Assembly (NCBI GenBank): GCA_015520735.1
Contig: WAPN01000030.1
Location: forward strand, 1 to 56,114
Direction of reading: 5' to 3'
Origin: Desulfurococcales archaeon
GTDB taxonomy: Archaea; Thermoproteota; Thermoprotei_A; Sulfolobales; Desulfurococcaceae
Length of the DNA: 56,114 bases
In this document: positions 15,318-21,119 of the stretch, piece after piece
Layout of the letters: the number at the start of each line of letters is the position of its first letter
How positions within the stretch are numbered: position 1 is the first letter of the stretch
Notes under the pieces: generated by a model
Told to the model about the DNA's origin: nothing
The model's input: only the letters and a program-made list of their open reading frames with translations
Database searches by the model: none
Position numbers and translations under genes: made by a program

Positions 15318-15788
15318 TCATTTCTCGCCCTGATAGTAGCCATTATAGGTCTTCTTAGTCTCGCCCGTCATCCTGAACACGACGAGCTGGGCTATCTGAG
15401 CCCCCTTATCAATGATAATGCCGTGGAGATTATGCACCACTAGGAGCCCAGACCCCCTTCCTCTATATCCTGGATCCCATACCGCGGTATATAGGGTTGC
15501 CCCCATTCTTATGAGGCTGGATCTCTGTATCGCCAAGCCCATATAGCCGTTCGGTATCTCGATCCACTCCTTGTACTTGACGTAGTATGGGCCGGGCCCA
15601 AGCTTGAATGAACCGTTAGCCGGAGTAATTTCACGGTATTTCGGAAGAACACGTTCTTCTATTCCTAAACGGCCATGTGTTTCTAGGACGTATACTCTGT
15701 CTAGATGTAGTTTAAGGCCCGCGCAGTCGGTCTCCTCATAACTAGCTCCAAGAAGTTCAACGAGATCCTCGGGTCTCAAAACCGCCAA
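15318..15788 (-). CDS. dut: dUTPase (crenarchaeal dUTP/dCTP-deaminase superfamily)
   Basis: Hydrolyses dUTP to dUMP and pyrophosphate, keeping uracil out of DNA. The trimeric dUTPase/Dcd fold is shown by AIQRSSLIRMG (about 87-97, phosphate-binding RSS), AVWDPGYRGRGSGLLVVHN (about 101-119, the active-site loop) and AQIAQLVVFRM (about 131-141). Length 156 matches crenarchaeal Dut. Start TTG at 15788, with GGTGA 9-13 bases upstream. A dCTP deaminase activity cannot be fully excluded from sequence alone. Confidence 0.88.
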   Translation of the reverse strand: MAVLRPEDLVELLGASYEETDCAGLKLHLDRVYVLETHGRLGIEERVLPKYREITPANGSFKLGPGPYYVKYKEWIEIPNGYMGLAIQRSSLIRMGATLYTAVWDPGYRGRGSGLLVVHNLHGIIIDKGAQIAQLVVFRMTGETKKTYNGYYQGEK

Positions 15789-15825: not shown

Positions 15826-15833
15826 GTTTAATA
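15826..15833 (+). promoter_or_regulatory. TATA box for the NifX-like gene
   Basis: GGTTTAATA-type element about 60 bases upstream of the ATG at 15889; predicted start near 15855, within the dyad at 15850-15863. Confidence 0.45.
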
Positions 15834-15849
15834 GTATGGAACCAAATAG

Positions 15850-15863
15850 TGTGCAATAGCACA
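15850..15863. promoter_or_regulatory. Operator-like dyad TGTGC-AATA-GCACA
   Basis: Perfect 5-bp inverted repeat with a 4-base spacer at the predicted transcription start of the NifX-like gene. The flanking context AGTGTGCAATAGCACATAA is nearly repeated upstream of the Trp-rich microprotein (AGTGTGCTATAGCTCAAAA), which indicates a shared regulator. Confidence 0.6.
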
Positions 15864-15888
15864 TAAAACAAAGAGAGGTGCATAGCGC

Positions 15889-16377
15889 ATGGCATGGTAC
15901 GGTTACAGCCAGCCAAGAGGACAGAGAAGAGGAGGCTATGGCTACGGTAGAGGAGGAATGGGCAGAGGAGCCGGCTGGAGGGGCCAGGGAGGAGGTCCAC
16001 CCACGATAAACTTTCCACCCATAAAGCCTCCGTCACCAGGGGCAATAAGAATAGCCGCAATGGTCAATACTCCCCACGGCCTAGAAGCGACACTGGCGCC
16101 CCACTATAGGAGAGCACCGTATATAGTACTTGTCGACATAGCGGGCGGAAAAACTGTCTGGGTAACTAGTATCCCAAACCCAGCCACCACAACTCATGGT
16201 AGTGGGGGGATTCTTGCCCAGTGGCTCGCATCCATAGGGGTTAAGTATGTTGTCTCAGGCCATATAGGGCCATCAGCTGCAAGGACACTGGTATCGCTAG
16301 GAGTGACAATAAGAGTACTGCCGCCGGGGACGAGGCTAGTTGACGCTCTTAGACAACTAGGATTAATGGCCCAGTAG
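15889..16377 (+). CDS. NifX/dinitrogenase Fe-Mo cofactor-domain protein with Gly/Arg-rich N-terminus
   Basis: A 162-residue protein. Residues 1-50 are low complexity (RGGYGYGRGGMGRGAGWRGQ); residues about 53-160 are a dinitrogenase iron-molybdenum-cofactor domain (IRIAAMVNTPHGLEATLAPHYRRAPYIVLVD; VVSGHIGPSAARTLVSLGVTIRV). Stand-alone members of this family occur in archaea without nitrogenase and are thought to bind metal clusters. It contains no cysteine. It starts MAWYGY, similar to MAWFPGYGW of the microprotein at 18594, and precedes a DUF134 regulator by 67 bases, the usual partner. Confidence 0.85.
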   Translation: MAWYGYSQPRGQRRGGYGYGRGGMGRGAGWRGQGGGPPTINFPPIKPPSPGAIRIAAMVNTPHGLEATLAPHYRRAPYIVLVDIAGGKTVWVTSIPNPATTTHGSGGILAQWLASIGVKYVVSGHIGPSAARTLVSLGVTIRVLPPGTRLVDALRQLGLMAQ

Positions 16378-16444
16378 ATCATTGAGTGATAGAATCAGTA
16401 ATTAATCATAATTTTTTCAAAATATTCTTGGAGGTCAAATAGAG

Positions 16445-16801
16445 ATGAACATGATAGGGCCTAGGAGGTGGAGATGGGGCCGCCGAGGCCCGGGCAGACC
16501 ACCAAAGCCCAGATGGATATGGGGATTTCCTGGGAGACTGAGCTTTATACCATTCGATGAGACAGGCCAGCCCATCAATGCAGAACCGGTTATTCTTAGG
16601 CCAGACGAGGTAGAAGCCCTGAGGCTAGTCTACTATGAGGGCCTCAACCAGGAAGAGGCGGCAAAGAAAATGGGTGTCTCGAGGGGAACCCTCTGGCGTG
16701 CACTGGCAAGTGGTAGGAGGAAAGTCGTCCAAGCCCTTATTGAGAGAAGACCCCTTGTTATGGGGTACTGGGAGGACAGAATAGAGCAACGACCCCAATA
16801 G
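16445..16801 (+). CDS. DUF134 (UPF0251) helix-turn-helix protein
   Basis: A 118-residue DNA-binding protein of the DUF134 family. The N-terminus is basic and Trp-rich (RRWRWGRRGPGRPPKPRWIW); the HTH is sigma-70-region-4-like: LRPDEVEALRLVYYEGLNQEEAAKKMGVSRGTLWRALASGRRKVVQAL (about 51-98). DUF134 genes usually sit beside NifX-like genes, as here, and are presumed to regulate them. The cysteines found near the N-terminus of many bacterial members are absent. ATG at 16445 with GGAGGTC 8-14 bases upstream. It is my candidate regulator for the TGTGC-N4-GCNCA dyads. Confidence 0.87.
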   Translation: MNMIGPRRWRWGRRGPGRPPKPRWIWGFPGRLSFIPFDETGQPINAEPVILRPDEVEALRLVYYEGLNQEEAAKKMGVSRGTLWRALASGRRKVVQALIERRPLVMGYWEDRIEQRPQ

Positions 16802-16882
16802 CATTATGAGCTAACACACGTGATGTATTATTTTGTCAAAAATGAGATTATAGGTTATTTGGCGTAGGAAAACATAATTACC

Positions 16883-18169
16883 TCATTGCTTCTTTAGTCC
16901 TACGAGGCTGAGTATTTTTGGCAGTAGCAGCCATCCATGCTCTATGATCCCTATCCTGCCCTTAACGCATTTCTTCTCAACCAACTGATCCACGTCGTCG
17001 GGCTCCATTCCAGGGGCATAGACCGCCACCGGCACAGGGTCATCAGTGTGTGCTCCAACGCTCGGCGGTGTGGCGTGGTCTGCCGTCACTAGGATTGCCG
17101 TGTCGCTGGGCATTCTCTCGAGGAATGGTCTGACGAAATACTCGTCTATGTACTCTATTTTCTTCTTTTTAAGCTCCATGTTCCTGTCGTGTCCTGGCTC
17201 GTCGGGGCCCTTGAGGTGGACGTAAACTATGTCATATGTATTCAGTAGCTCAAGTGTTTTCTCGAGCCTTATATTGTAGATTTCCTTGGGATCCCCTGTT
17301 GGTGGTTCCAGGGCGACAGTGTCTGCCCCGAAGATTCTCCCTATACCGATCTCAACAGGCATTTCCGCTAAGAACGCGAATTTGAGACCATATTTCTCAG
17401 GTAAGGGTGTTGTCCGCGGTATTTTTCCGCCGGCGTCCCTGAGTAGTATAACATTTGCTGGTAGGAGCCCTTTCTTTCTTCTAGCCTCGTTTACCGGGTG
17501 TTTGTCGAGTATCTGGATGGCTTTCTCAGTGAATATGTTTGCTAGCTCGGATGTTATCATCGCCTCAACCGTGTCTTCGAGAGGCTCGATCTTCTTTACG
17601 TACGGCTCGAACTCCTTCACCGCTACGCTGAGGAGGCCTTTACGAGTGTATGCAGGATCACTATTGCCTACATATGGGCTAAGCCTGTGTGACCTGCTAC
17701 CTATTATGACCACCGCACGATGACCTATAGTAGCCCTCATTCTTACGTAGCCATCATATTTTCCAAGCTCCATACCATCTAAAGCTTTCGCAAGCTCCTT
17801 AGCTTCCTCAGTCTCTAGACTTCTACCTACACGCCTATCGATCAATCTCTTGGTGCTCGGATCTATTGTTGCGAAATTAGCTCTGAAGGCTACCTCATAA
17901 CCTTCCTTAATGGACATTCCCGCACCAACAGCCTCGATCGGGCCTCTTCCAGTGTAGACTTCATGCGGATTGTATCCTATTATCGATATAACCGCCTCAT
18001 CGCTTTCCGGTGCAACCCCCTTCTCTATAGTATACATGGCTCCACAGACACCGTCCTTAGCGATCTTGTCAAGACCCGGCTTATAGGCTTTCTCCAGAGT
18101 TGTTACTGGGTCAGATAATCTATCAGCCATACCATCAAGAACCAGGTACAGAAGTCTCCTGATGGCCAT
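16883..18169 (-). CDS. apgM: 2,3-bisphosphoglycerate-independent phosphoglycerate mutase, archaeal type
   Basis: Interconverts 3- and 2-phosphoglycerate in glycolysis/gluconeogenesis. It belongs to the alkaline-phosphatase-like metalloenzyme superfamily: the N-terminal LYLVLDGMADR carries the first metal ligand D12, VAPESDEAVISIIGY (about 50-64) surrounds the catalytic serine region, LKGPDEPGHDRNM (about 318-330) and TADHATPPSVGAHTDDPVPV (about 359-378) supply further metal-binding Asp and His residues. Length 428 is normal for ApgM. ATG start. Single gene, transcribed toward the DUF134 gene. Confidence 0.94.
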   Translation of the reverse strand: MAIRRLLYLVLDGMADRLSDPVTTLEKAYKPGLDKIAKDGVCGAMYTIEKGVAPESDEAVISIIGYNPHEVYTGRGPIEAVGAGMSIKEGYEVAFRANFATIDPSTKRLIDRRVGRSLETEEAKELAKALDGMELGKYDGYVRMRATIGHRAVVIIGSRSHRLSPYVGNSDPAYTRKGLLSVAVKEFEPYVKKIEPLEDTVEAMITSELANIFTEKAIQILDKHPVNEARRKKGLLPANVILLRDAGGKIPRTTPLPEKYGLKFAFLAEMPVEIGIGRIFGADTVALEPPTGDPKEIYNIRLEKTLELLNTYDIVYVHLKGPDEPGHDRNMELKKKKIEYIDEYFVRPFLERMPSDTAILVTADHATPPSVGAHTDDPVPVAVYAPGMEPDDVDQLVEKKCVKGRIGIIEHGWLLLPKILSLVGLKKQ

Positions 18170-18533
18170 ACCTGTAACACCACATGATCATGCCTCTGGT
18201 CAAAGCTATATTGAATTAAAAATTAATAACATTAACCTGATCCACTCGAGGTTATAGACAATAAATTTCAACCATGCATGTGGAACCTATATGATATAAT
18301 CCTATAAACGCATGTACGGCTAGAGAATAGGAGAAAATGATTGACAATCTTAATTTTATGTTAATTTTATGTAATTGTAATCTAGGATATAGGATTATTT
18401 AATCAGTACTTGATATGGGAAGAAACATAAATGCCTTAAATATCCTATTATTATAGCTTGCTGGTAATTCGATGACGGGATTTTTGTTGACAACGATTTA
18501 ATTCTTATCCGGTTAGCGTCTTTGAGATAATTT
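18170..18533. other. AT-rich intergenic region with several inverted repeats
   Basis: Within a stretch of about 424 bases without a gene (18170-18593). It holds an exact inverted pair ATAATCCTATA (18296-18306) / TATAGGATTAT (18388-18398), a perfect GATTGACAATC dyad (about 18340-18350), a related GTTGACAAC (about 18486-18494), and a tandem TTAATTTTATG repeat (about 18351-18371). These look like regulatory or structural DNA rather than coding sequence. No ORF worth reporting. Confidence 0.35.
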
Positions 18534-18547
18534 TGTGCGTTTGCGCA
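18534..18547. promoter_or_regulatory. Upstream operator-like dyad TGTGC-GTTT-GCGCA
   Basis: Same half-site and spacer as the dyad at 15850-15863, here immediately 5' of the TATA box (BRE position) of the Trp-rich microprotein gene. Confidence 0.55.
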
Positions 18548-18556
18548 AAATTTAAT
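18548..18556 (+). promoter_or_regulatory. TATA box for the Trp-rich microprotein
   Basis: AAATTTAAT lies between the two dyads at 18534-18547 and 18559-18572; transcription is expected to start near 18578. Confidence 0.5.
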
Positions 18557-18558
18557 AG

Positions 18559-18572
18559 TGTGCTATAGCTCA
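18559..18572. promoter_or_regulatory. Downstream operator-like dyad TGTGC-TATA-GCTCA
   Basis: One mismatch from a perfect 5+4+5 dyad, centred 25 bp from the upstream site. Occupancy of both sites would cover BRE, TATA and start site. Confidence 0.55.
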
Positions 18573-18593
18573 AAATACTTATAGGTGATAGAA

Positions 18594-18845
18594 ATGGCCT
18601 GGTTCCCTGGTTATGGTTGGAGAGGAGGCTGGGGCTGGAGAAGAGGCTGGAGAGGCCCATGGCCTGGTAATGGGCCATTCAGCTATCTACCGCCATGGCA
18701 GAGGCCTGGATGGCTGTTTGGAAGAGGATCGTGCTGGTGGCTATTCGGCAGCCCATGGGGATACTGGGCTAGGACTTGGTACCCCTACCCAGTACCCTAC
18801 CCCTATGTACCTCCAGCTTACTACCCGTATTATCCATGGAGATGA
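18594..18845 (+). CDS. Trp/Tyr/Pro/Gly-rich microprotein
   Basis: An 83-residue protein in which 14 residues are Trp, 11 Tyr and 4 Phe, about 35% aromatic. The first half repeats a G-W-R-R-G-W pattern; the last third is Tyr-Pro repeats ending PAYYPYYPWR. A single Cys (GSCWW). There is no TM segment and no known fold. Composition and neighbourhood recall DUF5320-type proteins that accompany NifX-like/DUF134 genes, but I cannot assign it firmly. ATG at 18594 has AGGTGATAG upstream; an in-frame GTG at 18585 overlaps that site. Next gene follows after 27 bases. Confidence 0.7.
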   Translation: MAWFPGYGWRGGWGWRRGWRGPWPGNGPFSYLPPWQRPGWLFGRGSCWWLFGSPWGYWARTWYPYPVPYPYVPPAYYPYYPWR

Positions 18846-18872: not shown

Positions 18873-19205
18873 TTGTCTTGGTGGTATAGGTTTATGAGGA
18901 GAATGTATTATTGGATGCCGCCACCCTACCCTGTACATCCTGCGCCATCACCGACCCCTTACCAGCCATACACAGGCCAGACTGGCCAGCCGGGCGGACA
19001 GGCACAGATGCAACAACCAGTAGCCCCACCATATATGCCACCCTATTTCTTCCCGCCACCGTATCCGCTACGTCCGGAAGACGAGCTAGCAATGCTCGAG
19101 GACTATAAAAGGATTCTCGAGGAGGATCTCAGGGAAATACAGGAAGAGCTCAAGAGTGTAGAGGAAAGAATCAAAGAGCTTAAGAAAATGCTTGGCCAGG
19201 AATAA
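18873..19205 (+). CDS. DUF5320-like protein: Pro/Tyr-rich N-terminus plus coiled coil
   Basis: A 110-residue protein. Residues 1-65 are Met/Trp/Tyr/Pro/Gln-rich (MYYWMPPPYP; PPYFFPPPYPL); residues about 67-108 form one strongly charged coiled-coil helix (EDELAMLEDYKRILEEDLRE followed by ELKSVEERIKELKKML). That plan is typical of DUF5320 proteins found beside NifX/DUF134 genes. TTG start at 18873 with AGGAGGGA 5-12 bases before it. It is surely co-transcribed with the Trp-rich microprotein, and the coiled coil may oligomerise the pair. Function unknown. Confidence 0.7.
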   Translation: MSWWYRFMRRMYYWMPPPYPVHPAPSPTPYQPYTGQTGQPGGQAQMQQPVAPPYMPPYFFPPPYPLRPEDELAMLEDYKRILEEDLREIQEELKSVEERIKELKKMLGQE

Positions 19206-19312: not shown

Positions 19313-20566
19313 ATGGATGTCATCTATGAAAAATTATACAAGTATATTGAGCCCTTTGAAGCTGTATCGATATTAATAGACGGGTTCAAGAGAAGAGCTA
19401 TAAGATTGAGGCCGGAGAAGAGCGTGGGCTATATTCTTGCAGAGCCTGTTTATGCAGAGATAGATAGGCCTTATGCTGATCTATCTCATGTTGACGGATG
19501 GGCTGTTAGATCAATAGATACATTGAGCGCTTCTTCAAGGAGCCCTGCTAAGCTCAAAGTGAGAGATAATGTTGATTCCCGAAGAGCAGATCAGGTTGAG
19601 CTCCGGTCCGGCGAGACGGTTTTCGTGGAGACAGGATTTCCCATACCTATTAATGCGGATGCAGTCGTACCGGTCGAGTCAGCCCGTAAAATCGGAAACA
19701 ATGTCTACATCTACGCACCGGTAACCCGAGGATACAACGTCTTTCCTAGATCCAGCGATTTCAGGAAAGGAGAAAAACTACTGGATAAAGGTACGAGGAT
19801 CACCTATTATGCAGTAAAATTATTAATGGATGCAGGAGTTTGGAGGATAAAGGTCTACGATAAACCTAAAATAGCAGTTTATAGCACGGGCGTCGAGCTC
19901 AAAGAAGAGCCGGCCATGCCCGGCGAATCCTACATACCTGATTCCTCAAGGCTATTCATAAACCATGTGATCGAAGAACTTGGAGGAAAAATAATAGATA
20001 CAGCCAATATACCTGACTCTTACGAATCAATAGCCGAAGTAATAAAGGAGATCATAGATGAGGCTGACCTCATAATAACGATAGGAGGGGTATCCATGGG
20101 CCCACGTGATATGACGTGGACAGGGATAAGGAATAGGATAAGGTACAGCAGGGTCTTTAGAGGAGTAAAAATGCATCCGGGAAGGTCAACAAGCGGTTTC
20201 AGGACAAACAAGGCATCGATCCTCAACCTTCCAGGACTACCACAGTCAACCATAGCTGCGGCATTACTAGTACTAGCCCCAGTCATAAGATACATGTCCG
20301 GAGCCGAGCCAATTATTGATAAGCCAAAACTGTACGCGAGGCTCGCCAAAGACTATCGGAGCGATAAATATCTAGGTTTCTACAGGATAAGATATGTTGA
20401 GATCATTGATGGAGAAGCAATCATATTGGAAGATAATCCTTCCTATAACGTCTTCACGCCACTGAAAAGCAGTGGCATAACAATAATACCTCCGGGCAAA
20501 AAACCGTTAAAAAGTGAATTGATACCGATCTACAGACCTAGCTCCATTTATCCGGGGGAGACTTAG
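19313..20566 (+). CDS. moeA: Molybdopterin molybdenumtransferase (MoeA)
   Basis: Inserts molybdenum or tungsten into adenylated molybdopterin, the final step of the pyranopterin cofactor; in hyperthermophiles this usually serves tungsten enzymes. MoeA signatures: DLSHVDGWAVRS (about 56-67), ETGFPIPINADAVVPVES (about 105-122), the MPT-binding GGVSMGPRDM (about 258-267), and LPGLPQST (about 304-311). Length 417 is normal, without an added PBP-like domain. ATG at 19313 with GGAGG just upstream. It is followed by a Tfx-family regulator and preceded by the NifX/DUF134 locus, a consistent metal-cofactor neighbourhood. Confidence 0.93.
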   Translation: MDVIYEKLYKYIEPFEAVSILIDGFKRRAIRLRPEKSVGYILAEPVYAEIDRPYADLSHVDGWAVRSIDTLSASSRSPAKLKVRDNVDSRRADQVELRSGETVFVETGFPIPINADAVVPVESARKIGNNVYIYAPVTRGYNVFPRSSDFRKGEKLLDKGTRITYYAVKLLMDAGVWRIKVYDKPKIAVYSTGVELKEEPAMPGESYIPDSSRLFINHVIEELGGKIIDTANIPDSYESIAEVIKEIIDEADLIITIGGVSMGPRDMTWTGIRNRIRYSRVFRGVKMHPGRSTSGFRTNKASILNLPGLPQSTIAAALLVLAPVIRYMSGAEPIIDKPKLYARLAKDYRSDKYLGFYRIRYVEIIDGEAIILEDNPSYNVFTPLKSSGITIIPPGKKPLKSELIPIYRPSSIYPGET

Positions 20567-20630: not shown

Positions 20631-21119
20631 ATGGAGGAAAGTAGCTTGAAGCTCGGTTTTTTCACAGAACGGCAGATAAAGATCCTATATCTTAGGAATA
20701 AGGGGCTCTTACTAAGAGATGTTGCGGAGATCATGAAGACGAGCTACCAGAACATATCGTTGATCGAGAAACGTGTCTACAGGAACGTTAAATTGGCCAA
20801 GGACACGCTCCTCATATACAGGATCATAACATCACCTGTAAAGATATTGCTTCCGGCAGGCTCACATTTAGCGGAGATCCCTAGAAAGGTCATACTAGAA
20901 TGCGATAAGAAAGGAGTGAAGCTCAAAGCAGACTTCACACTCATCTACAAACTTATAAGGTTTAGGACGTCCGAGAACATAAGGGGCCAATATATAATCA
21001 AGCCCATATTCCTTCTAGTAGATCTCCAGGGCCAACCATACGTCTATGACTATGAAAGTGTAGAACCCTACATTAAGGAGATAGAGAGGATCATAGGAGA
21101 AAAGATAATAGAGCAGTAA
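20631..21119 (+). CDS. Tfx-family transcriptional regulator
   Basis: A 162-residue DNA-binding protein. The N-terminal HTH follows the Tfx pattern: FFTERQIKILYLRNKGLLLRDVAEIMKTSYQNISLIEKRVYRNVKLAKDTL (about 10-60). Residues 70-162 form the Tfx C-terminal domain (ILLPAGSHLAEIPRKVI). Tfx of Methanothermobacter binds downstream of the molybdenum formylmethanofuran dehydrogenase promoter and is molybdate-responsive by proposal. Being 64 bases after moeA, this protein plausibly regulates Mo/W cofactor genes. ATG start; short leader. Confidence 0.88.
   Translation: MEESSLKLGFFTERQIKILYLRNKGLLLRDVAEIMKTSYQNISLIEKRVYRNVKLAKDTLLIYRIITSPVKILLPAGSHLAEIPRKVILECDKKGVKLKADFTLIYKLIRFRTSENIRGQYIIKPIFLLVDLQGQPYVYDYESVEPYIKEIERIIGEKIIEQ

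Follow-up and report, generated by a model that had tools for sequence, protein, structure and literature searches.

The orp operons of Desulfovibrio, divergent genes governed by sigma54 together with DVU2106, their own palindrome-reading and self-limiting regulator, are among the closest described parallels to the archaeal locus considered here (PMC3897727). In Desulfovibrio MrpORP, NifX-like (PF02579) and Mrp/NBP35 domains have been linked to Fe-S cluster binding and transfer (PMC6345978). Some of the archaeal gene sets resemble these operons in part, through PF02579 (Di-Nase) or Mrp/NBP35 proteins and neighbouring MinD-ferredoxin ATPases, and also through divergent genes controlled through palindromes by a self-limiting regulator, a part proposed here for DUF134; they differ in their archaeal TATA-like promoters, in having a small DUF134 protein and no sigma54-type activator, and in their Trp-rich/DUF5320 proteins, for which no counterpart is stated in Desulfovibrio. 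To our knowledge, archaea have no sigma54.

Archaeal DtxR-type iron regulons are comparable in that feoAB can also be a target of the operator described here and a link to metal is likely, but they employ another palindrome, and feoA of the genome studied here carries TTAGGCTAGCCTAA in place of the dyad. Sites of the CRP/FNR type (TGTGA-N6-TCACA) look similar to the variant half-site TGTGA/TCACA described below, whereas the present operator has a spacer of 4 rather than 6 and additional T/A flanks; no CRP-type gene was seen among the recurrent neighbours of Trp-rich loci. DUF134 proteins (UPF0251; PF02001, COG1342) are themselves predicted to bind DNA, and the protein of this locus is a clear member with an HTH resembling sigma region 4. 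An earlier reading of this DNA, made from the letters alone (the sequence-only reading), had remarked that no defined DUF134 operator was known to it, and no published operator, target set, or ligand for the family was found in the open papers searched.

Genes and Operators of the Locus

Within the window (the whole stretch of 56,114 nucleotides analysed, from a Desulfurococcales archaeon), a gene for a NifX-like protein with a Gly/Arg-rich N-terminus (15889-16377, + strand; PF02579, E 7e-13) is followed by that of the DUF134 HTH protein (16445-16801, +; PF02001, E 5.4e-21, 75.4 bits against a cut-off of 27), the candidate regulator. Because only 67 bp separate the two, they probably form one operon in this genome, in which case the operator in front of the NifX-like gene would autoregulate DUF134. 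Farther along lie a Trp-rich protein of the GPFSYLPPWQRPGW family (18594-18845, +) and a DUF5320-like coiled-coil protein (18873-19205, +), the second gene of the pair. The identities proposed from sequence alone are borne out for the NifX-like and DUF134 genes; the DUF5320 match is only sub-threshold (21.8 bits, cut-off 27), and the Trp-rich reading frame has no Pfam family. The Trp-rich and DUF5320-like parts occur as a single fused protein at two other loci (L027 and L030), which suggests that the gene pair seen here is a split form of that fusion. A dCTP deaminase-like gene (15318-15788, -) runs divergently to the NifX-like gene, the two being separated by the intergenic region that contains the first operator, while a MoeA-like gene (19313-20566, +) and a TFX-type HTH gene (20631-21119, +) follow the DUF5320 gene; the promoters of these last two contain no dyad.

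Three dyads of the type TGTGC-N4-GCNCA had been reported in the two promoters, and all lie exactly where claimed: TGTGCAATAGCACA at 15850-15863, TGTGCGTTTGCGCA at 18534-18547, and TGTGCTATAGCTCA at 18559-18572. The first begins 18 bp past a TATA-like TTTAAT (15827-15832, +) and, as had been proposed, should overlie the point at which transcription of the NifX-like gene starts, the position of which is only predicted; the second and third, whose starts are 25 bp apart, do enclose a single TATA-like TTTAAT (18551-18556, +). The flank said to be common to all three holds for sites 1 and 3, which have ATAGTGTGC, but not for site 2, which has ATTTTGTGC...GCGCAAAAT. The dyad is likewise a real element but an incomplete description of it, as the true operator is longer: the dyads are copies of a 22-bp palindrome, ATTTTGTGC-NWWN-GCACAAAAT, found in the core promoters of Trp-rich/DUF5320-type genes in many archaeal lineages. 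On the basis of sequence and matrix, operator 1 (ATAGTGTGCAATAGCACATAAA; 15846-15867, unstranded like the others) lies over the expected start site, operator 2 (ATTTTGTGCGTTTGCGCAAAAT; 18530-18551) immediately upstream of the TATA box, and operator 3 (ATAGTGTGCTATAGCTCAAAAT; 18555-18576) immediately downstream of it. Operator 1 is kept within the genus and in G008; G002, a second species of the genus, and G112, from another family, also have operators in tandem, spaced 24-26 bp apart.

The sequence-only reading would have been refuted by a dyad occurring at chance frequency in the genome and without promoter bias. Exact matches to TGTGC-N4-GCNCA number only four in the 1.53-Mb assembly (40 contigs), three of them in these promoters; the fourth (C33:87168) was rejected as chance-like, having no A/T flanks and a matrix score below 5. 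With the 22-bp matrix, to whose training set all three sites belonged, the dyads reach 24.9-26.3, while elsewhere in the 56-kb window the highest score is 9.6.

Conservation of the Palindrome

Across the order, a tight pattern, TGTGCNWWNGCNCAWAA, was matched in 12 of 147 genomes, with 22 matches listed (two places appear twice, once for each strand) as compared with 5 for a reversed control, and outside the genus most of these lie just 5' of a Trp-rich, DUF5320-like, or NifX-like gene. Matches in G020:C38, G028, and G033:C110 were discarded as coding-like, with near-identical flanks and no regulon gene at the site. Sixteen sites upstream of such genes were used to build the matrix, whose consensus, ATTTTGTGCNWWNGCACAAAAT, includes conserved T/A flanks that lengthen the palindrome.

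The Trp-rich family, marked by an invariant LPPWxRPGW, was then sought in 84,980 species, and 80 loci from many archaeal groups were kept. Almost all of their promoters contain the palindrome, which usually outscores every other place in as much as 12 kb; in Thermococcus it stands 5' of the NifX-like gene that opens the gene run, and not of the Trp-rich gene itself. Loci still without a site are both Methanocellales loci, L139, L175, L177, and L192. Absence of the dyad upstream of orthologues would also have counted against the sequence-only reading, yet with a matrix from close relatives, 51 of the 59 held-out upstream regions (a set that excludes Desulfurococcales and Thermofilales-type loci) score at least 15, a level attained by 5 of 1180 random windows and by only 1 of 1180 shuffled sequences. 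Pattern scans over 398 genomes of the phylum, in which no gene information was used, found the TGTGC form at 23 places (reversed control, 0) and a TGTGA form at 19 (control, 2), the two occurring together in no genome under strict patterns.

These results bear on the proposal that the dyads are merely RNA hairpins or chance repeats and not protein sites. TGTGC-N4-GCACA could indeed fold into a short hairpin, and once one mismatch is allowed, the window stands at chance level, with an unremarkable 10 matches against 8.2 expected; operator 2, however, lies upstream of its TATA box and so would not be transcribed from it, the conserved T/A flanks extend the palindrome, and the held-out enrichment is far above chance. 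A hairpin or chance origin is accordingly given next to no credence, and chance repetition in particular is rejected by rarity in the genome, held-out enrichment, and the gene-blind scans with their controls. The three dyads are thus confirmed as real and far above chance in this Desulfurococcales genome, and comparison among genomes demonstrates a conserved predicted operator that occupies a consistent place in promoters and belongs to a coherent group of genes.

DUF134 as the Candidate Regulator

In an AlphaFold model of the window's DUF134 protein, the HTH occupies residues 69-100, with confident helices at 69-76 and 80-100 (mean pLDDT ~97 in the block); the nearest solved folds are those of sigma region 4 (E about 0.03), and a search by sequence for a solved DUF134 structure found none (best E 0.097). 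Against a base rate of 63 of the order's 147 genomes, DUF134 is present in 11 of the 12 that have a tight match; the one without it, G149, has a match that looks weak. By far the commonest HTH neighbour of the Trp-rich gene, DUF134 is encoded no more than 4 kb away at 51 of 79 loci; its gene lies upstream in divergent orientation at 29 loci and upstream on the same strand at 14.

A different factor might nonetheless bind a genuine operator, leaving DUF134 a co-regulated passenger, and the TFX-type protein or a member of the DtxR family could be named: the TFX gene is 2 kb from operator 3, a DtxR-like gene (called by eye) is the next most frequent HTH neighbour, recurring near 8 of 79 loci, and DUF134 is missing nearby in some loci. 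Thirteen loci with full flanks have no DUF134 within 3 kb, and in one genome that is 70% complete (G011) the site is present and DUF134 was not found. Within the narrow zone tested, a site is lacking for approximately half of the DUF134 genes examined; this includes the window's gene, since the NifX-like gene stands between it and its site. Against another binder stand the frequency of DUF134 beside these loci and the fact that a residue of its HTH tracks the operator, and, for the DtxR family, the different, DtxR-like palindrome at this genome's own feoA; such a binder is judged unlikely. DUF134 therefore remains the best candidate for the regulator that binds the operator, an inference well supported by neighbourhood, co-occurrence, and co-variation, as the sequence-only reading had anticipated, for which no binding data exist.

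The residue in question, the first of HTH helix 2 in the model, is residue 69. Nearly all TGTGC genomes have Gln at this position, and the TGTGA genomes have Phe, Leu, Met, or Tyr. The residue co-varies with the inner base of the operator: a non-Gln residue accompanies TGTGA in 12 of 12 cases, and Gln accompanies TGTGA alone in 1 of 42. An apparent exception at L027 (+ strand) proved to be a spurious reverse-frame ORF and was excluded. On the tree there are two separate changes, both in the same direction, a number too small for a significant sign test. Since other DUF134 columns also differ between the clades, separating the TGTGC and TGTGA classes equally well, Gln69 is a candidate and not an identified specificity residue.

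Mode of Control

Relative to the operator centre, TTTAWA centres cluster at -11 to -25 or at +10 to +15; the median distance to the first ATG is 28 bp. That a TATA box abuts the operator suggests repression and autoregulation; a self-limiting repressor is inferred because the TATA box may lie on either side and the operator often sits between divergent DUF134 and target genes. That DUF134 instead activates, or does either depending on where its site lies, is conceivable for promoters in which the operator is just 5' of the TATA box (the +10 to +15 bin), where an archaeal activator could recruit TBP/TFB, but in many others the operator is downstream of the TATA box, ahead of the start codon, and covers the expected start site, which favours blocking; activation is thus considered improbable, though not excluded.

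In the preferred reading, in which DUF134 represses from these operators, a DUF134 dimer would read both TGTGC half-sites through its sigma-region-4-like HTH, while its GRPPKP arm may contact the T/A flanks. The stretch GRPPKPR resembles an AT-hook, which could account for those flanks. Positioned on or beside the TATA box, the protein would block RNA polymerase or TBP/TFB, repressing the NifX-like/DUF134 operon, itself included, and the Trp-rich/DUF5320 operon, the repression of which would be tightened by two operators around a single TATA box. As for the signal that would lift repression, the target genes point to Fe-S cluster or metal status; the window's DUF134 has neither Cys nor His, so the signal would arrive indirectly or via another ligand. 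That the dyads are DUF134 operators through which both operons are repressed is regarded as probable, in the absence of any binding or expression data.

Target Genes and Wider Reading

Of the 23 places with the TGTGC form, 14 belong to Trp-rich/DUF5320-type genes, 2 to feoAB, 1 each to a NifX-like, an Mrp/NBP35, and a Cys-rich gene (the last without a Pfam family), and 4 to others; the 19 of the TGTGA form comprise 13 Trp-rich/DUF5320/DUF134, 1 NifX-like, and 5 not assigned to a gene type. Classes were assigned by reading adjacent genes, some DUF5320-type calls being made by eye, and a Pfam family was found for 9 of 10 target proteins checked. A NifX-like gene lies within 4 kb in 41 of 79 loci (clean NifX profile), and a MinD-ferredoxin-like cluster adjoins 33 of 79; of these genes, the window showed the NifX-like one alone. 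All 65 ORFs of MinD-ferredoxin/Mrp-type ATPases examined are without a site of their own. The Fe-S links of NifX-like and Mrp/NBP35 proteins, together with feoAB at sites in two genomes, suggest by inference a regulon for Fe-S or metal-cluster handling. The "small regulon" first proposed is thereby upheld as a conserved regulon but not as a local one, as it is archaea-wide and in some lineages reaches feoAB and Mrp.

The window genome's feoA was rejected as a target, no dyad being found (best score in the feoA locus, 2.2), so iron uptake is at most a lineage-specific addition. Just 5' of this gene (C1:74572), at L266:1433-1446, the perfect palindrome TTAGGCTAGCCTAA resembles a DtxR-type box.

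More broadly, DUF134 may be a widespread archaeal repressor of genes for anaerobic Fe-S/metal-cluster handling, with one operator code in which the choice of TGTGC or TGTGA depends on the residue that opens HTH helix 2, and with feoAB included in some lineages, a proposal for and against which the odds appear evenly balanced. A large uncharacterised regulator family would thereby be supplied with a definite operator, with targets, and with a rule from residue to base that can be tested; the Trp-rich and DUF5320 proteins, so far unexplained, would be connected with Fe-S/metal-cluster genes in archaea ranging from Thermococcus to the Asgard lineages; and a possible archaeal counterpart to orange-protein gene control in sulfate reducers would emerge.

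Several individual promoters merit mention. An operator lies 5' of an Mrp/NBP35 gene (L232:1521), and another (L101:1664) 5' of a short ORF that has two MinD-ferredoxin ATPases after it. A small Cys-rich family, CxxxxxGxCxLYxVxVPPxGxACPNF, has an operator in its promoter (L102:1640-1960, -; L263:2094-2414, +) and is possibly a further regulon member; no Pfam family was found for the L263 protein, the member checked. Bathyarchaeal promoters (L140, L150, L152, L159, and L215) often have, close to the first dyad, a second of mixed type, TGTGC...TCACA, which may provide cooperative or graded control.
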